Below, in pieces: positions 2,083 through 55,609 of a stretch of DNA of 64,000 bases. The stretch is from contig JAJKFJ010021473.1 in the NCBI GenBank assembly GCA_027382625.1, positions 186,001 to 250,000 on the forward strand, in the 5' to 3' direction. The DNA comes from Tetmemena sp. SeJ-2015 (Eukaryota; Ciliophora; Spirotrichea; Sporadotrichida; Oxytrichidae). The notes below the pieces were generated by a model. The model ran no database searches and was not told the origin of the DNA. It saw only the letters and a list, made by a program, of their open reading frames with translations. Every line of letters begins with the position of its first letter. The stretch's first letter is position 1. A program made the translations under genes and the position numbers.

Positions 2083-5000
2083 TCATTTCTCAGCATGTAT
2101 TATATTAATTTCCATAACCAGACAAAAATTTAGCTTATCCTTCTGCGCGTTTCTCAACTCTTCATCTGGATCCTTCTTTTTAGTCTTTTGACCGAGCTTA
2201 CCCTTGGTGATTTTGATTGTGGGTACTCTCTTTCCAGTCTACTGTTATTGCTGGCCAGCCTGCTAAAGTTTCTTTTCTTCTTGCAGCTTCTTAGACTTCT
2301 TTTCAGCGTCTTAGCAGCAAATGTGCTGCTGCTTCTTGAATCGACTAATCATCTTCATAGACTGGTTTACCAGCTACTCTATTCATTATATATCCTTCTT
2401 TCAAGCGAGAAAATTCAGCCTCGTCCAGAACCTCTTGCAGCTTTGCTTCTATTCTTTGGAGCTTCTCTCTTAGCTCGTTTCTTCTGAAATTGATGATCTA
2501 GTTGAGTCTCCTGATTTCATCAGGGTTGCGCTTTCTAATTCCATAGTTAAACACCAACATTTCACCCTTGATACTCTTATAAGCAAAGATTCATATCAAA
2601 CTTCTATCAAGTGAAGTTATAATGGCTCTATTCTAGATCTCCATCTTGTCGTAAGTAGTGTTCTTGACTCTTTCCCTTAGGACTTCCAGTTCAAGGATTT
2701 TGCGCTCTGCTTCTTTTCTGATCTGCTCGCAAATTTTCTCTCCCTCATCATTCACTACGTCTCTCCTCTCAACATCGATAACGAATTCATCTCTTTCAAG
2801 TCTCTCTATCTCCGTTACTCTATCATTCTCGTCCAAAAGTTCCTTAAGCTTTTGCTTGATGATGTCTAACTCAGACATGATCTCTTCTCTAAAGCGTTCT
2901 TTCTTGGAGGCTTGCTGCTTGTGGAAGAGATCTTGCAAGATGTCTTTGTAAGGTCTGATATCAGGCTCAGGCATGTCGTCCATCTAGTCAATCTTATCAA
3001 TAGCTTCCAAGTCGTTCTTCACTACTTAGACAGGCTGAGAGGGATTAGGTTTGCCTCCCAAGGTCCAAGCGAAGAAAGCACCATCACCACCAGCTGTGTA
3101 GAGAGTTGATCTCACTCTTGAGAAAGTCATGGCAGTAATACCATGGCAAAAGACTGCATGTCCTTTGATTTCTGAGCCAGAGATTTCGTTGCTGTTTTGA
3201 GAAACGTGGTTCATGTTTCTTACTATAATATTTCCGTCTTTTCCTCCTGTCACCATAAACTTAACCTCGTTGGAGAAATCATAGCAAGTGGTAGCTATAT
3301 CATGGGACTTTAACTCGTCAAGAGGTGCATTAGGAGCTTTTTTGAAGTCAATCTTGTTGAAAGCCTCTGCTGGAAACTCGTACTTCTTTAGGAATTTATC
3401 ATCACCACTGACAAAGATGTCTCCGTTGAATTAATTGGCAAGAACAAGCTATGCTCCTCTATCTATTCTTCTGTAAGCCAATTTAGTGGTGCTCTCTGGA
3501 ATGGCTTCCATACGGTTATCAGGATTGCGTTCAGGCATTTCGAATCCTGCTAGCAAAGCATTTGTTAGAATGGCAAGTGCCTTAGATTTTCCATCGTGAA
3601 TAGTAAAGCATGTATTAGTGACATAGCCTTCTAAGATTACATGTCCGAGCACCTCATAGTCAAGTTCAGCCTCTTGAGAGATTATATAAACGCTTTCACT
3701 ATTCGAAATTGAAATAAAATCACTATCTGGACTGGAGACTATTACAAACTTTCCACAAGGAGAAGACTTGACTGAGTTGATTGGAATCTTTTTGTCGAAG
3801 AACTTGTAGATCTTAAGCAGCCTTGGCATGCCTCGGTTGCTAACGTCATAGACTCTAAAGATTCCCATATCGGAGCCCACGAAGATTGACTTGCCATCCT
3901 TTGAAGCGTCCAAGGCAGTTGGATTGCTGAAGCAGGGGATTCTAGCTATTTAGTTGAAGATTAAATAAATCATTGAACTGAGTGGCTTCCCATATTCCTA
4001 TGGTGTTGTCCTCACTAATGGTTGCAAGTTAGGTAAACTAAGACTCTAATTATATTCTCCTAGTTTTTTATTATATATATATATATGTTTAGTTTCACCT
4101 AGCTCCTTTATTCCATTGATCTTGGCAGTGTGGAATCTTCCCAACTCCACGAAAGGAGTCACAAGCACTTTAGTTTCTTTCTCATGCTGATTCTCCTCAT
4201 CTTCTTCATCCTCGTTAATAGCTTCAGCTTCTATAGCCAGCAGACCTATAAGTCCTTACTAAGTTCCGCAGATAAGCTTCTTAAAGCTTCTAGAATAGTG
4301 CATATAGGAAATAGGCTCTAGTGGAGCAGCACCTTAAGATCCAATCATGCCATCGAGTGCAGATTGAGAGGCCTAGTTTTGTGATGCTGCTGGGTTGGTC
4401 TCGAATTTATACTCCTAGTCAACTTCTTCAGTAAGTGTCAACTTAAGATCCGCGTTGGCATCGTTGCCTATCACTATCTCTGGAAGTTGAATTCTATACC
4501 AAGCCAGCATGCAATCATCAGTGGAGATGATCATGTGTCTTTGAGTGAGCAAGCAAGTGAGAGGTCTTGAGGTCAAGCTCAGAGAATTTTCCACGTTCAA
4601 AGTTTGAGAATCAATCTACAGTAGCATAGGCAAGTCGCAGCAGACATGAATTCGCTTATACTGATCCCAAATGAAGTGAGTGAACTAGAGCTCTGGGTTC
4701 TGATCCTTATAGACCGAGTAAGAGAGACGATCAGACTCTCCAAGATACTTCTGCTCATCTTGCTCTGTGATTTCATAGCCTTAGTGAACTTTGTAGAAGT
4801 AAATGGAGTTGCTAGCAAGGATGCAGAACTCACGAGAGTTTTGAGGGTTGAACTTGACTCTGCGGTAGTCAGCTGGCTTACAAGGAAGCTTGCACTCTTG
4901 CTGAGTGGTGCCAATAGATGCTCCACTGAGGTTGAGTTTCTTGTTGTTCTCAAGATCGAAGATTGAGATTCTGAAGTCAGGAATTCCACCGATCATAAGT

Positions 5001-5537
5001 AAGTAACGGCCGTCTCTGGAGAAGACCATGTCAATGAGGCGAATGGTGGAATCAGCCTTGAACTTGTGGATCATTTCTTTTCCAGGGTACTTGTAGATGT
5101 GGACTTCTGGGTTGAGGCCGTACTCTGCAGCAGCTATGAGGTTTTTGTGGTAATTAGAAGCTGATACGCAATAGCCTGAGCGTTTGGACCTGAAATAGAT
5201 ATAAGTTATATGAGTTGGAGAGAAGTCTCTTAATTTGAAACATGGAAGATTGATAATTTAAATATAAATGGAGCCAAGAAGAAGAAAGTGTATCTTCTTG
5301 GGAAAGCTTTTTAAGAAATCGAAATGTAACATACCAGATATAGTCTTTCTTTCCTGAAGCTGAGTTCCAAATGATAACTGCGTTACCAGCAACGAAGGTG
5401 ATGGACTCCTCTTGAATGATGGAGAAGTCGTGACCGCCATAAGCGAATGAAGAATGACTACAGTTACATCAAATTTAAAAGCGAAAAAGAGAATTCAATT
5501 ATGTAAATTGAAGGCGATATTACATAGGCTTGAGCAT
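2083..5537 (-). CDS. CFAP43: CFAP43-like ciliary WD40 protein, N-terminal MDS block
   Basis: N-terminal half of a cilia- and flagella-associated WD-repeat protein (CFAP43/CFAP44 family; CFAP43 fits best), a tether linked to axonemal inner dynein arms. From ATG 5535-5537 (MLKPI, then a GT-AG intron) it reads YGGHDFS, VAGNAVIIWN, then WD-repeat blocks ending FFAWTLGG, then a coiled coil (around 2980-2640). One frame holds from 5190 to 4110; it is completed with introns and with IESs at 3959-3977 and 2284-2338. The frame leads into a 12-bp pointer at 2134-2145. Downstream of it, to TGA 2083-2085, is probably not part of the gene. The C-terminal half is not downstream but lies upstream on the same strand (5770-8007). 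CFAP44 is the alternative identity. Confidence 0.75.
2134..2145. other. scrambled-gene pointer, copy 1 (CFAP43)
   Basis: CTTATCCTTCTG, identical to 7996-8007. On the coding strand it encodes QKDK in the same codon phase at both sites, so it joins the end of the N block to the start of the C block. Flanking bases differ on both sides, so the identity is exactly 12 bp. Confidence 0.85.
2284..2338. other. 55-nt IES in CFAP43 N block, pointer CTTCTTG
   Basis: CTTCTTG at 2277-2283 and 2332-2338. Excision corrects a +1 frame difference between the DDQSIQE reading and the following EEKKLQQ reading. The surrounding AAG/CTT-rich sequence offers alternative short repeats, so the limits are less certain than for other IESs. 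Confidence 0.55.
3959..3977. other. 19-nt IES in CFAP43 N block, pointer TTGAA
   Basis: TTGAA at 3954-3958 and 3973-3977. Removing 19 nt joins IWEATQF to NQIARIPCFSN and restores the WD-repeat frame. Confidence 0.7.
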
Positions 5538-5769
5538 TTGAATCAATCAATCGTCAAAATCAAACAATCTATTATTTAAATTATAAACCTACGCTCTCGC
5601 TCACTGAATGATACGTCCATAAATGCGTTTAATGATTTTAAATATAAAATAAACCTCTTTTAAGAGAGGGTGGCTTTATGATAAGGTAGCTCCAATGATA
5701 TAAAGGAGAGAAGTTTAGTCATCAATGAAATAAGGGGAAACCTATTCCATTTCATTGATATTTGGTAGC
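5538..5769. other. gap between the two CFAP43 blocks
   Basis: Short non-coding interval. It should hold both the 5' leader of the N block and the 3' trailer of the C block, because the two blocks are in swapped order. No reading frame is supported. Confidence 0.5.
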
Positions 5770-8007
5770 TCAAGCCTCGTCAGGGAACTCAGGCTTGTTG
5801 TGTAGATGAGCGAATGAAGGGAAGGTCCTTGCTCTGAGACTATCCAAGTTATCTCTCAAGAACTCTATCTCTTCGGTCTGTTGCTTAACTATATCCATAA
5901 GTTTTCTCTTGTGAGCAATCTCCTTAATCTTCTTGCTTGGATCCGCAACTCCATCATTGTTGGTCTTTGACTTGAGACCCATGATTTGCTTTCGCTAGTC
6001 CACATTCTGCTGCAGCTGACGCGCCTTCGTTTCAAGTTGCTCGTTCTCCTTCAGCTTGTCAGCGATCTCCTTTCTAAGCTTCTTCTTAGTCTCGTTGATG
6101 GTCTTAATTCTCTTCTGAGCATTCTCATCCAGTTAGCGGATTTGGTTGTCAAGTCTCTTCTTGTCTTCTTCATCCTTCTTCTGGTGCTTGCCTTGAATTA
6201 TCTCCTGTGTTTGCTTCGTAACTCTGTAGAGTTGGACGTCCTTAGCACGTTCTTCGAAGTCCAAAATCTCTAAGTCTAGCTTCTTCTTCTAGTAGCGGAC
6301 GCGCTTGAGACCAGTCTTAAACTCTGAGATCGCATTCATCATCTTAACCTTGGCGTCACCTCTCTTTCCGATTTCCTTGTTCTCGTCTTCAATTACATTT
6401 CGCTGGATGAGGATGGCGTCTTTGTAATCTGTAGCTACTGGGAGCTGTGGCACCTCCACCTGTCCCTGCTTCATGTAGATAACTATCTCGTAGTTGTACT
6501 TCAGTTTCTCAACTCTGTCTGAAGCCTTCTTGTGAGCAGCAAAAGAGTGCTGGAATTTGTCATTGTTGTCATTCCTTAAGTGCTCAAGGAACTGCACATG
6601 GTCTTTCAGCTATTGGATCTAGGTGGACAACTTAGTCCTGTCTTTCTCCATCTCGATTCTGTTGTAGCGCTCCTAGACTAGCTTATCGAAGTCTTCTTCG
6701 CCAAGACCAGCCACATTATCTTTCTCGAATACATAAGATTCCTTCTCATCTTCTTCCTTGAGCTGATGCTTGATACGCTCCTTGTCGATGTTAGAAAATG
6801 GATCCAAATCCACAACCTTGGCCATGAGCTCTTGTTCTCTGGAAGAGGGCTCTCCTTAGGGAAGTGTAGGCTTCTTTGAGCGACCTTGTCTGACGAAGTT
6901 GAGAATCTGCTTGATGTTCACATCTGGGAACATCCTCTTCAGCTCCTTTTCTTGCTCTTGGATTGAAGTGTTGTTACGCTGTTGTGTTTCAAGATCTTGC
7001 TGGAAGTTGTAGAAGTTGGAGATCATCTCCTCCTTCAACTTCAACTCGTTCTCTAACTTGTCTCTTTCTTCTAAGTAAACACAAACTCAAAGATCATAAT
7101 ATAGAGACTTTGAGGCTTAGATTACTTCTTCTGGTCGAAGGTGGTTTCTTTTGCGATCGTGTAGCATGATGGTGAGTCTGATGATGTACAGCTCTTGTTC
7201 CATAACTCTCACGTCCATGAATAGCTTCTTCTTGAACAGCATCAGGATTCGTTCTTCAAAGCGCAGCTGGATTTCTATGATTTCTCCCTTGATTTTCTTC
7301 AAATCCTGCTCCCATGCTTTCCTTTGCTTCTCTTTGAATTCCTTTTCCTTCAGCTCGAATTCCTTTAGCTTGAGCTTCTCTTCCTCATTCATATCATCAT
7401 AAGGTTTATTCATCCAGTCCTCTCGCACCAACTCATTCTGGATCTAGTTCTAATCCTTCTTTAGATTCAGTTCAGTACCTCCCATCATACTCTTTAGACC
7501 TCTCTGTCCTACGTTATCACCCTAGAGTAGCTTCTCTCTTTCAGCCTGCTTTCTCTACTCCTCTTCGAGTTTAGCCCTTTCTTCCTTGGTGAGGAACTTC
7601 TCCACTCCTACTTCTGTTTCTTTCACCTCAAGGATAAGCTCAGGGTCTTCTAAGTGATGCTTCTCTGGCTCAAAGATATCCTCCTCCTACTTCAAATTGA
7701 AGAGCAGCTCCTTGATCATCTCGTTCTTATCTTGGATGCTGAAGCAGGACTCGAATTTGAATTTCTCAAGTGCCTCAAATTCCTTATTGTAGTCTCTCTT
7801 GAGCTCAAATATTACTTCTCTGAGCAACTCGATTTGCATGCGCTTTCGAGAGTCAGTGTACAAGTCACAGGACTCGTAAATGATGTCCCAGATGTTAGGG
7901 TGATCCAACCTCTTCTTCAACTCATCTAGTGAGTGCAGGGCGAACTTCACAGACCAGTAGATTTCTTCCATGCCCTTAATTTCTCTCTGCTGCATCTTAT
8001 CCTTCTG
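5770..8007 (-). CDS. CFAP43: CFAP43-like protein, C-terminal coiled-coil MDS block
   Basis: One frame (codon ends at multiples of 3) runs from 8007 to TGA 5770-5772 and encodes about 725 residues of nearly continuous coiled coil. It includes the family block REDWMNKP and the C-terminal EIEFLRDNLDSLRARTFPSF, typical of the CFAP43/44 tail. There is no start codon at the 5' edge: an in-frame TGA lies just upstream of the 12-bp pointer at 7996-8007, so the block is not an independent gene with its own N terminus. A 60-nt IES containing an in-frame TGA sits at 7073-7132. Joining through the pointer gives ...NAQKDK-MQQREIKG... in frame. Confidence 0.75.
7073..7132. other. 60-nt IES in CFAP43 C block, pointer TTCTTCT
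   Basis: TTCTTCT at 7066-7072 and 7126-7132. The insert keeps the frame but contains a TGA on the coding strand; excision joins HLRPEE to RDKLENELK. Confidence 0.8.
7996..8007. other. scrambled-gene pointer, copy 2 (CFAP43)
   Basis: CTTATCCTTCTG, matching 2134-2145. It marks the 5' edge of the C-terminal block; upstream of it the reading frame is closed by TGA within 15 nt. Confidence 0.85.
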
Positions 8008-8075
8008 TGAATACACTCTTCAAGCAACAAATGCAACTACTTCATGAAATTAAGAGTTTCTAATTAGACTTTTGA

Positions 8076-27147: not shown

Positions 27148-28907
27148 TCAAAATCTGAAGACTCCAGCTTGAGTGTCTTCAATCTTAGCATTAAGAGAGG
27201 CGATCAAACTCATTCCAAGTACTCTTCTTAAATCTGCTGCCTTGATGATTCCATCATCCCACATCTTACCTGTTGAATAATAAGCACTACCCTAATTATC
27301 ATATTAAGCTTGAATCTCTGCTTTGTAGGCATTTACTGCTGCTTCTTCGGCGTCTTTCTTAAACTTGACTAGACTCAAAACTTCACTTGCTTGCTGACCT
27401 CCCATCACAGAGATCTTAGCTGAGGGAAGCATGTACATGAATCTTGGAGAATAAGCTCTACCACACATTCCATAATTTCCAGCACCATAACTAGCCCCAA
27501 GCACTGCGGTTATTTTAGGAACATTGGCATTTGCAACTGCGGAAACCATCTTTGCTCCGTGCTTTGCGATTCCCTCGCTTTCAAATTTCTTTCCAACCAT
27601 GAAACCAGTAATGTTTTAAAGGAAGAGAAGAGGAATCTTCCTCTAAGAGCACATTTAAACGAAGTGAGCACCCTTTTGAGCACTCTCAGAGAATAGAACT
27701 CCCTGGTTAGCAACTATTCCAACTGGGTGGCCATAAAGGTGACCAAAGCCAGTCACTAAGGTTGAGCCATATCTCTCTTTGAATTCATGGAAACGAGAAC
27801 CATCTAGCACTCTTCCTAACACTCCCTTTACAGAGATATTTCTCTTATGATCGACAGCAATAATTCCATTCAATTCATCTGCATCATATAAGGGATCTTC
27901 GGGAGCGATTCTATTGTGGGAGTTCTCGGGATAGTAAGTCTTGGTGCTAATGTTAGATAGAATAGATCTTGCTAACTGGAAAGCGTGATTTTCATTATAA
28001 GCTAAATGATCGCTGACACCTGACTGCTCTGAGTGGAGAGTTGCACCTCCAAGGTCCTCATCAGTAACTATCTCACCAGTTGCGGCTTGCACAAGGGGAG
28101 GTCCTCCAAGGAAAACAGTACCCTTTTTGTGGACCATAATAACTTCGTCACTCATTGATGGAATGTAAGCTCCACCAGCGGTGCAGCTTCCCAAGACGAT
28201 AGCTAGTTGAGGAATACCCTTACTAGACATTCTTGCTTGGTTAAAAAAGATTCTTCCGAAATGGTTCTTATCGGGGAAGACATCATCTTGTTGGGGTAGA
28301 AAAGCACCACCTGAGTCAACTAGATAGACACAAGGGAGGTTGTTCTCTTCAGCTATTTCTTATGCTCTAACATGCTTCTTTACTGTCATGGGATAGTAAG
28401 TTCCGGCTCTGAATGAGTGGTTATTTGAAATGATCATGCATTGTCTTCCATTAACCATTCCAATACCTGTAATAATATTACCAGAAGGTATGGACTAAAG
28501 ATTATTAATATGCTTTAATACTCCTCTCCAGTGTTTGAGTAACCAGCAAGCTGTGATAGCTCGAGGAAAGGAGAGCCTTTGTCGATCAATGCATTGATTC
28601 TTTCTCTAGGCAGCTTCTTGTCTCTCTTCTTTGCTATTGCCTTGTACTTATCATCAATATGCATCGTATCAGTAGTGATCTTATCTAATTTCTCATTAGT
28701 TTTCATCATTTGCTCATAGTTAGACTTGTAGATCTCTGAACCCTTGTCGCAGTGAGGCTCTAATACTTTCATGAAAGATCTGTCCAACTCAGGGTAGTGA
28801 TGTAAGTCGGCATGATTGAATCCCAAAGCTGAGGCAGAAGCTGCTTTGGCTTTGCTGAAAGATGTAAATCCTCGAGTTTGAGTTCTAGTGAAAATTAAAA
28901 AAGACAT
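27148..28907 (-). CDS. MCCC2: methylcrotonoyl-CoA carboxylase beta subunit, mitochondrial
   Basis: Carboxyltransferase subunit of leucine catabolism. Starts ATG 28905-28907 with a mitochondrial presequence ([17 protein letters not shown]) and ends TGA 27148-27150, about 575 residues, full length. Diagnostic blocks: [26 protein letters not shown] region, [62 protein letters not shown], and [15 protein letters not shown] with the [16 protein letters not shown] oxyanion region. The order and the LPQQ/VFPD motif favour MCC beta over propionyl-CoA carboxylase. One 26-nt IES (28497-28522) is needed; no introns are obvious. It is followed upstream by the inverted CNB gene. Confidence 0.9.
28497..28522. 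other. 26-nt IES in MCCC2, pointer ACT
   Basis: ACT at 28494-28496 and 28520-28522. The coding strand joins SNTGEE to [17 protein letters not shown] reading of the same interval (27 nt) leaves the frame wrong, which is why an IES rather than an intron is called. Confidence 0.8.
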
Positions 28908-52836: not shown

Positions 52837-54315
52837 TCATTTAGAGAACTTCCCTGTCGATCTCAGATAAACTAAAAACACGAGGAATAAAGAATCTAAG
52901 ATTCCAAGGAAGTAGAACGGAGCCTGAATGCTTATGTTTTCAAAAAGATATGAGCCAAACTTTGTGATGAGTAGGATTCCAATAGCGCTAACTGAGTTAT
53001 TTAATCCTAAAATTGTCCCTCTCGTACCTTTCTCGATAATTTTATAGAGTAGTGATATAATTGCAATGTTTTAAGTCTGATTACCGACATTTAAGCATAT
53101 GACCACAATATATGTTAGCGAGCTTCTCGGGTCGTCAATCAATGAGAATAAAGCGATTCCGAAAGTTGAAATGCCGAAGACAAAGAGAAAGATTGAGCTA
53201 GATTTTACCTTGTCAGACACTATTCCTACAATGCAGGTACAAATCAGAGCAAGAAGCATGCTCATACCATTAAGTCTAGTGCTCAAAGATTTGGCCTGCT
53301 GTTATCCTATTTCATCTCTTGTGTAAAAGGAACTTATCCAAAGATTCAAATAGATGGTGGAAATAACATTTAGCATTCTGCAAAGAACTGAGCCTACTAG
53401 ACAGACGTTTAGTTCAACCTTAGATTGAATTTCTCCCTTTAGTTACCTTAGCATGATCTTAAACTTTTCTCTTTTACTTTCTTACTGAAAACTCTTCTTT
53501 TAGATCCTTGCGTCTTTTACAGCAAATAGGAGAAATAATGCTATTCCAAAAGTGAATGCTGTCTCAATAGCATAACTATGCTTATAAGTCATTTCTCTAG
53601 TAGCCCCAAACATTATGAACATCCCAAAAAGGACTCCAAGCCCGGCGAATAGTCCCACATAGGCACTAGCTCTTCCTCTTGTAGAGCTCTTGACATAATC
53701 CGCTACTAGGGGAGTTGAGGCGGGACCACTTAATCCGATCTAAAACATGCATCTACAAATTAGAAGGCCTGGGTAAACAGAAGAAAGCCAGGGCTGTATC
53801 ACAAATGCTAAGCAAGCTATAGAGAAGCCTACAAATATCGTAAGCCTTCTTCCTAGTAGATCATGCGATGAGCCTGATAGTAAATCGAAGAAAAGAGTAA
53901 TGAGTTAAGACCAGAAGATCAAGTCATTTACTATCACGGAGGATTATGATGTCGTAAGATTAAAGTAGTCTTCAGCTTGCAAAAGATAGACAAAAGACAC
54001 TTCGTAAAAAAGAAGGAACTAGAGCATAGTGAAGAGGATCAAAACCATTCCTATTATGTTCACAAGTTCCACGCCTTGCTTTACTTTGAGCTTGAGTATC
54101 TCTTTCGGCGCCTAATCAGATCTAGGGATTAATCTCTCGCTATAATCATACTTTTGACCAAGTTCATTAGGAGAAGGATCGTCTATTATAATAAAAGTAA
54201 GAATAATGGGAATCAAAGTTCTTATTAAAAAAGTTAAATTCCAGCCTAATTTTAGTAATTCAGAAACAGATCTGATTAGATAGTTCTGAATCGCTATAAT
54301 TTTTAGCTTATTTAC
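52837..54315 (-). CDS. major facilitator superfamily transporter
   Basis: One frame from about 54315 to TGA 52837-52839, about 490 codons, with TAA/TAG as Gln. It has ten or more hydrophobic segments, and the loop 2-3 signature reads FDLLSGSSHDLLGRR, matching the MFS G-X3-D-R/K-X-GRR pattern. Other segments include LLICRCMFQIGLSGPASTPLV and YAIETAFTFGIALFLLFAV. The charged central loop (DARIQKKSFQQESKREKFK) separates the two six-helix halves. No ATG occurs in the open frame before the first membrane segment (WNLTFLIRTLIPIILTF), so the first codons are on another exon or MDS. Substrate unknown. Confidence 0.7.
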
Positions 54316-54485
54316 TCAGGAAATTTTTTATCATATGACAGAGTTATTAGGGTGAATTATATAATTTATTTCTGTCTATTTAAAAGTGATATTTCGTGGT
54401 CATTTTATTTCGTGCTAAGGTTTGATTTGATTAAAAATTGTCTTGAAATACTAGCCTAGCATTTACCTATCTTAATTAACTATTT

Positions 54486-54524
54486 TTAGATAATTTTGAT
54501 GTTGCCAGAGAATCATGCTTGCAA
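54486..54524 (+). other. GPI8 MDS2
   Basis: Bounded by TTAG (54486-54489, shared with the end of MDS1 at 55381-55384) and TCATGCTTGCAA (54513-54524, shared with the start of MDS3 at 55431-55442). Encodes IILMLPENHAC. Confidence 0.75.
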
Positions 54525-55609
54525 GCTTATTATCCGTTGAATGAATCTACTTTGATCCTGACCACAAAGAAAACTTTTACTGCGAAGATATTGAGGTAGA
54601 CTATAAAGGAGATGACTTATTTTCCACTACATTTGCAAAAAAGATTGAACTCAAATGAGAAGTCTAAAGTGTTTATCTACATGAATGGACATGGAGGAGA
54701 GAATTTCTTCAAAATCTAAGACACGGAAGTGGTACACAGTGAAGATTTTGCAAAGGTTTTCAATGAAATGCACATAAAGAATCTTTACAGTGATATCCTT
54801 ATCATCTTAGACACATGTGAGGGTATGACCTTATTTGACTAAGTGGATGCCCCAAACATTTTAATGGTGGGTTCTTCAATTCTTGGGAGAGCATGCCTTC
54901 TCCCACGAAGTAGATTAAAAGCTGAACACTTATGTGAATGATAAATTCACGCATCATCTCTTCGATTTTCTTAAGTCCAAATCTCCATAATATAAAGTAA
55001 AGATTTCTGAGTTCCCTTAGCTTTTCCCTTATAACAAGCTTGATTCAACTCTCCAGATCAAAAGCACATACAAAAATAAGACTCCAGACTAGATTTTCTT
55101 ACACGAATTTCTTCCTATTGATAGAGAAGATGATTAAATCTACTATTTTAAGATCTCATAAAAGTGAAAGTAGGCAAATTTAAATTATAAATCAAAATGA
55201 TATTTTAAACATGCTTGCTTTTGGTCTCAATATGTATGATGAAGTTTGAATAATTATGAAAACAACTTATACTTCATTCTTTCAAGTCATTTAAAATATG
55301 ACTATCTATTTCAACTATAGACACACTGGAAATGCTATTGTATTATACAAGTACCTTAAAGAGAAAGGTATCACTGATGATTAGGTAAGTCCTAAATAGT
55401 GGCTAACAAACTTAGATCATATTTATATTCTCATGCTTGCAATCAAAATCTAATTCAAAGCTTTCAAAAAATAAACTTAATTTGTATAAATGCTCGTAAT
55501 CCCTATCCAGGAACAATCTACTTTATTTTTTAATTAGAGATGACTTGACTTACGAAACTATTCTCAATTTGATCAGAGGCAGATATGCTAACTACGTAAG
55601 GAACCATTT
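54486..55609 (+). CDS. PIGK: GPI transamidase catalytic subunit (GPI8/PIG-K), scrambled six-MDS gene
   Basis: C13-family Cys protease that cleaves the GPI-anchor signal in the ER lumen. In germline order the pieces are MDS2 (54486-54524), MDS4 (54544-54618), MDS6 (54630-55167), MDS1 (about 55257-55384), MDS3 (55431-55524), MDS5 (55537-55609). Reordered 1-6 they read NYRHTGNAIVLYKYLKEKG, ILMLPENHACN, ARNPYPGTIYF, DPDHKENFYCEDIEVDYKGD, LTYETILNLIRGRYANYV, then the catalytic YMNGHGGENFF (His) and ILDTCEGMTLFD (Cys). All five joins use shared pointers and keep frame. One extra G near 54882 (CTTGGGAG) breaks the frame before SHEVDQKLN and may be a sequencing indel. The stop is TGA 55165-55167; the 5' start upstream of MDS1 was not located. 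Confidence 0.85.
54544..54618 (+). other. GPI8 MDS4
   Basis: Bounded by AATCTACTTT (54544-54553, shared with 55515-55524) and GAGATGACTT (54609-54618, shared with 55537-55546). An 18-19 nt spacer separates it from MDS2 and 11 nt from MDS6. Confidence 0.85.
54630..55167 (+). other. GPI8 MDS6 (catalytic part and C terminus)
   Basis: Begins with CATTT (54630-54634, shared with 55605-55609) and runs to TGA 55165-55167. Contains the His and Cys active-site blocks. Confidence 0.85.
55257..55384 (+). other. GPI8 MDS1 (5' limit uncertain)
   Basis: Encodes ENNLYFILSSHLKY...FNYRHTGNAIVLYKYLKEKG and ends in TTAG (55381-55384). A 10-nt TAT-flanked insert near 55305-55315 seems to need removal. Confidence 0.7.
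55431..55524 (+). other. GPI8 MDS3 with internal IES
   Basis: Starts with TCATGCTTGCAA and ends with AATCTACTTT. A 48-nt IES with pointer AAT (55441-55443 / 55489-55491) must be removed to join HACN to ARNPYPGTIYF, leaving only 13 nt of MDS on its left side. Confidence 0.7.
55537..55609 (+). other. GPI8 MDS5
   Basis: 73 nt from GAGATGACTT to CATTT, encoding DDLTYETILNLIRGRYANYV plus RNHL. This is exactly the segment missing between MDS4 and MDS6. Confidence 0.85.

Follow-up and report, generated by a model that had tools for sequence, protein, structure and literature searches.

The DNA between positions 54486 and 55609 of the window, the whole stretch of 64,000 nucleotides that was analysed, carries six plus-strand pieces of one GPI8/PIG-K gene in the germline order 2-4-6-1-3-5, and this locus is very likely the germline (micronuclear) precursor of a scrambled gene of a spirotrich ciliate in whose code TAA and TAG stand for glutamine. 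The even-numbered pieces form one cluster (54486-55167) and the odd-numbered pieces another (about 55197-55609); the pieces are complementary, overlap each other at the junction repeats only, and require five switches from cluster to cluster within 1.1 kb. When a new macronucleus forms, they would be joined in the order 1-2-3-4-5-6 at short direct repeats, each repeat surviving once and the short sequences between the pieces being lost, and template RNA may guide this joining, as it does in other species according to studies cited in PMC9797194.

An earlier note on this DNA had proposed the six segments and their odd-even order. All six are present where it placed them, and the order is borne out by the homology of the pieces in the tiling. 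The pieces and the IESs between them are given below, with scores against the solved GPI transamidase chains 9ub7 and 7w72, which we take to be the yeast and human proteins respectively, since the structure records name the molecule only.

54486..54524, plus strand: segment (MDS) 2, IILMLPENHAC(N), with exon 2 running from 54490, after TTAG; yeast score 38
54525..54543, plus strand: IES between segments 2 and 4, 19 bp; similarity to segment 3 not significant
54544..54618, plus strand: segment (MDS) 4, IYFDPDHKENFYCEDIEVDYKGDDL; yeast score 55
54619..54629, plus strand: IES between segments 4 and 6, 11 bp; similarity to segment 5 not significant
54630..55167, plus strand: segment (MDS) 6, with the GHGG and DTC motifs, through the TGA stop; yeast scores 218 and 94, in two frames
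55257..55384, plus strand: segment (MDS) 1, with clear homology from YFNYRH (55307); yeast score 75, human score 70
55431..55524, plus strand: segment (MDS) 3, with homology (NARNPYPGTIYF) from 55489; yeast score 40, human score 40
55525..55536, plus strand: IES between segments 3 and 5, 12 bp, containing neither G nor C; similarity to segment 4 not significant
55537..55609, plus strand: segment (MDS) 5, DDLTYETILNLIRGRYANYVRNH; human score 29, weak when taken alone

With 100 shuffled versions of the 9ub7 chain, the best score in the region had a median of 43, a 95% point of 57 and a maximum of 61. Segments 1 and 6 therefore stand on their own, whereas segments 2 (whose yeast score falls below the shuffle median), 3, 4 and 5 are recognised by their position in the tiling. 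A search of the whole assembly with the joined protein returned segment 5 with E=2.6e-7 and segment 3 with E=2.6, values to be read with the knowledge that the query was built from these same pieces; segment 2 was not separately listed in that search.

GPI8 is the catalytic subunit of GPI transamidase, and the identity of the joined protein as GPI8/PIG-K, as the earlier note had it, is firm. Translated with TAA and TAG as glutamine, and made with 48 nucleotides omitted and the frame changed in segments 1 and 6, the protein matches the GPI transamidase chains at 2e-57 (9ub7) and 5e-52 (7w72); its best legumain match, at 5e-20, is far weaker, and the Pfam C13 family is matched at 2e-33. Identity over the aligned region is 37% to 9ub7 and 34% to 7w72. 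The GHGG and DTC motifs, presumably those of the catalytic histidine and cysteine, are invariant across the three aligned sequences, and the joins are gapless against both solved chains except for two extra residues at 5/6. The protein differs from both chains in these two residues, and segment 1 fails to supply a complete N-terminus: where the earlier note had offered end-to-end coverage of PIG-K as a check, the matches extend over residues 15-266 of 283. Part of segment 6, compared with NCBIfam, gave nothing relevant. TGA is absent inside the reading frames used for the joined gene, and TAA and TAG account as sense codons for 49 of the 2707 codons in five large ORF pieces, which lack TGA because they were chosen as open frames.

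Repeats shared between the two clusters mark the junctions as follows.

54513..54524 (even copy) and 55431..55442 (odd copy), plus strand: pointer 2/3, TCATGCTTGCAA, 12 bp; p=1e-4 in register
55515..55524 (odd copy) and 54544..54553 (even copy), plus strand: pointer 3/4, AATCTACTTT, 10 bp; p=2e-4 in register
54609..54618 (even copy) and 55537..55546 (odd copy), plus strand: pointer 4/5, GAGATGACTT, 10 bp; p=3e-4 in register
55605..55609 (other copy 54630-54634), plus strand: proposed pointer 5/6, CATTT, in phase; not beyond chance

The in-register test compares 75-nt windows in the same register with 20,000 shuffles of one copy; this register is given for 3/4 and 4/5 also by the gapless protein alignment, and for 2/3 is fixed by the repeat itself. 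With the register left free (1000 shuffles), the probabilities are 0.001 for 2/3, 0.005 for 3/4 and 0.013 for 4/5. By DNA alone, neither CATTT at 5/6 (0.088 in register, 0.96 free) nor TTAG at 1/2 (0.25 in register) is distinguishable from chance. Thus, although all of the words in the five in-phase pointers proposed earlier lie where they were described, three of the five exceed chance and CATTT and TTAG do not. Across the clusters as a whole there are four shared words of at least 10 bp, three of them at junctions 2/3, 3/4 and 4/5 and the fourth, of 11 bp (54709/55443), away from any junction. This is a modest excess over shuffled sequence, which has a mean of 1.12 such words and reaches four in 37 of 1000 cases; none of the 46 other adjacent pairs in the window reaches four.

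The junction between segments 1 and 2 appears to coincide with an intron. The splice donor GTAAGT, which the earlier note overlooked in proposing TTAG as the pointer, lies directly 3' of segment 1, exactly where the homology stops.

55385..55415, plus strand: probable 31-nt phase-0 intron, GTAAGT...CTTAG, starting exactly at the end of the segment 1 homology
55412..55417 (also 54486-54491), plus strand: TTAGAT, the preferred 1/2 pointer and the longest word common to 55385-55425 and 54420-54500

Codon usage over 55385-55415 is negative in the frame of the exon, with one other frame at +1.8. GTAAGT followed 15 to 40 nt on by TTAG occurs nine times in the window where 4.4 would be expected (nine is reached in 4 of 100 shuffles), a weak enrichment, and it is the exact position of the motif that is the stronger argument for a probable intron. 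In Strombidium cf. sulcatum introns are mainly 28-42 bp long and their positions 3 to 6 are biased towards AAGT (PMC10901763); introns near or at pointers have been reported (PMC9797194), as have direct repeats overlapping splice signals in spirotrichs (PMC1805493).

Given GTAAGT...CTTAG after segment 1, the 1/2 junction is probably better read as lying at or inside this intron. The word TTAG that the earlier note proposed does occur twice: it closes exon 1 (55381-55384), and in the even cluster it forms the end of the intron (54486-54489). Joining at TTAG or at TTAGAT gives an identical protein. From the sequence, a join at TTAG would delete the intron from the DNA, whereas a join at TTAGAT would keep it for splicing. 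The latter is what we favour, with splicing completing the exon junction. There is a small chance that the junction is a live switch between intron and IES, at which cells might use either join and so produce two macronuclear forms. Immediately after CTTAG, the sequence ATCATATTTATATT resembles the start of segment 2 (local p=0.005, uncorrected), and perhaps the odd cluster has kept the intron with a decayed segment 2 start behind it.

A further complication lies at the start of segment 3, where the 12-bp join at 2/3 keeps 48 extra nucleotides between HAC and NARNPYPG.

55444..55491, plus strand: 48-nt A+T-rich stretch between copies of AAT at 55441-55443 and 55489-55491; GC 0.17 for 55443-55490

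The solved GPI8 chains have no counterpart of this stretch, the alignment becomes gapless once it is omitted, and for the greater part of the stretch every frame has a poor codon profile. Its position between two copies of AAT makes it likely that it is a conventional IES, and judged from these features it is probably a further, unscrambled one to be removed. This reading is awkward in that it leaves a tiny first part of segment 3 that is almost wholly pointer. Alternatively, segments 2 and 3 are joined directly at AA and the 12-bp match is a leftover; the product would be the same.

Two regions of the gene do not read through in one frame.

54878..54892, plus strand: one surplus base, with a frame change in segment 6; placements tie at 54878-54888, and 54892 scores two points less
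55197..55256, plus strand: possible start and signal peptide, MIFQTCLLLVSICMMKFEQL, in a frame that differs from that of FNYRH

An IES of 4, 10 or 16 nt in place of the surplus base was rejected, each scoring clearly below a single surplus base. In the part upstream of FNYRH, a signal peptide and the conserved NN-hydrophobic-S strand never come together in one frame, and reaching the candidate start takes at least one more frame change. The best single deletions there score 102-108, compared with 81 without a deletion, and none is clearly right; the codon-usage profile is not decisive for the N-terminal frame. We also considered an additional piece 0 in the even cluster, with GTCATTT (54399/55286; p=0.008 in register) as its junction word, and rejected it on account of an in-frame TGA just upstream. 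Rejected likewise was a relic of segment 1 at 54403-54522, which scores 35 against the human chain, below the shuffle median, and gives DNA p-values of 0.52 and 0.56. The frame break and the N-terminal trouble may reflect errors of sequencing, additional IESs or genuine damage.

How probable is it, then, that the locus is dead? The surplus base in segment 6 leaves a recently dead locus possible. In its fuller form this explanation holds that we see two broken tandem copies of GPI8 that are never joined, the functional gene lying at another germline site which the assembly, possibly incomplete, does not include. The break in segment 6 and the further frame change upstream of FNYRH both speak for it and count against a live scrambled gene, the more so beside the large ORFs of the window (967, 500 and 492 aa), which have no frame breaks, though they were picked for their length. 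Also counting against the reading as a scrambled precursor are the 1/2 (TTAG) and 5/6 pointers, which are no better than chance, the scarcity of decay relics and the unscrambled state of the actin family. Random decay of two copies, however, would hardly leave each part of the gene once, in complementary pieces that overlap only at the junction repeats, with GHGG and DTC kept. Nor was another GPI8 found: the 146-Mb assembly was searched by family (6 matches) and by protein (11 matches), with the best candidates only being scored, and among the best candidates of both searches there is no second GPI8, either colinear or joined. An intact PIGK elsewhere, which the earlier note had named as a refuting case, is thus not seen in the assembly. 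The other C13 loci found, on the three contigs C1631, C2848 and C3094, are legumains and were rejected as intact GPI8 genes: these loci match legumains at 2e-76, 2e-55 and 7e-47 and GPI8 at 5e-22, 3e-16 and 5e-5. We therefore regard a dead locus as unlikely.

An assembly error, by which a colinear gene was wrongly ordered, is far less probable still. It would have to make five switches in 1.1 kb, three of them at repeats that exceed chance and are kept in both places. The one other family that was checked across the assembly, actin, gave 65 matches, of which 53 make up 20 multi-piece loci and 12 are single (several loci look like twins); scrambling was seen in none of the 20, all being colinear, so the scrambled order is not a general fault of the assembly. 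What lends an error some colour is a G4T4 tract inside a contig, a hint that there may be faulty joins. With up to 3 mismatches allowed, no joined 3/4 sequence was found in the assembly, and so no macronuclear contig of GPI8 was seen there. The preferred reading remains that of a germline precursor of a scrambled gene.

Several features of the assembly were observed alongside these searches. Repeats of GGGGTTTT, the spirotrich telomere unit (G4T4/C4A4), occur at 21 places on three contigs, 18 of these on one contig; the pattern read in reverse, with 28 matches, is no control, since it amounts to that repeat in a shifted register. About 360 bp of GGGGTTTT-type repeats lie inside contig C2828 (20,310 bases; locus L021, 1440-1805) with other sequence on both sides, and this internal tract is either a germline telomere or a wrong join. 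Two actin-family regions are doubled, on C2293/C3715 (L026/L027) and C3492/C1681 (L031/L032), with 100% and 99% identity over about 4.1 kb, and the legumain pair C1631/C3094 is 94.6% identical.

The origin of the odd-even layout is a separate question. The pattern has been tied to local duplication and decay (PMC9797194), and on the strength of that literature it is likely, and for this locus possible, that a local duplication was followed by alternate decay of the copies, as the earlier note had suggested. We compared each IES or flank with the segment that it would replace, in seven comparisons scored both globally and locally, which gave 14 p-values in all. A single one falls under 0.05, and correcting for 14 would remove its significance.

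55412..55429 (compared with 54486-54503), plus strand: possible segment 2 relic in the odd cluster, with TTAGATCATATTTATATT aligned to TTAGATAATTTTGATGTT; local p=0.005, global p=0.54

Against a longer segment 2 target, the same stretch of the odd cluster gives 0.20 (local) and 0.098 (global). The duplication model is thus left with one possible relic (uncorrected), the other 13 p-values exceeding 0.05. These 13, together with the mere 11-19 bp spanned by the IESs 2-4, 4-6 and 3-5, would suit a stepwise process in which coding segments recombine with IESs at short A+T-rich repeats and which needs no duplication (the model of Chang et al. 2005 as described in PMC9797194). The possible relic, on the other hand, lies in the odd cluster where duplication would place it. 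Similarity between IESs and segments is found mainly in recently scrambled loci and is weaker at older ones (PMC9797194, section 8), so absent relics count little against duplication. Stepwise recombination is a rival on the origin only, and there a substantial possibility that we nevertheless rank below an even chance.

Elsewhere in the window there is one other sign of scrambling. In a CFAP43 homologue (2591-8019, minus strand), the coiled-coil C-terminal part (8019 to 5770) is read first and the N-terminal WD40 part (5494 to 2591) second; this is possibly a second scrambled gene. No CFAP43 match was found in the ten flanking ORFs tested, and no in-phase repeat at the junction, where the shared words are of 8-9 bp only; AGAAGGATA was rejected as a junction repeat because it is out of phase. 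An MFS transporter occupies an unbroken 492-aa frame (52837-54315, minus strand) whose 5' end comes to within about 170 bp of segment 2, so that a GPI8 piece further upstream would have little space. A carboxyl transferase domain lies in an unbroken 500-aa frame (27148-28650, minus strand). Rfam (at gathering scores) and tRNA scans of the window gave no matches, and no relative was found among viral contigs.

The GPI8 locus is a new example of a kind of scrambled gene that is already known. Scrambled loci make up 13.6% in Tetmemena and 7.3% in E. woodruffi (PMC9797194), and 15.6% in O. trifallax, as cited in PMC10901763. Like the odd-even genes of Oxytricha trifallax, Tetmemena sp. and Euplotes woodruffi, it has two clusters and pointers within the typical 2-20 bp (PMC9797194); for those species, however, the order is known from macronuclear genomes, whereas here we infer it from protein homology and repeats. 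Spirotrich DNA polymerase alpha offers a parallel to the 1/2 junction, with direct repeats over splice signals, as where TAG precedes GT in the exon and recurs where the intron ends, and IESs and introns at shared places (PMC1805493). Its repeats flank ordinary introns, whereas the repeat in GPI8 would join scrambled pieces. The main text of PMC9797194, supplements aside, has no word starting with 'gpi', and 'gpi8' was not found among the best-matching open-access papers on scrambled ciliate genes. Odd-even scrambled genes have been described as abundant (PMC9797194, section 8), so it adds little that this one is GPI8, and apart from the probable intron at 1/2 the locus lengthens an already long list by one gene. 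With its two possible joins, that intron would offer a small case in which the exchange proposed between DNA deletion and RNA splicing could be tested (PMC1805493, PMC9797194). If the locus is live, the only copy of GPI8 that was found must be reassembled before it can be read.
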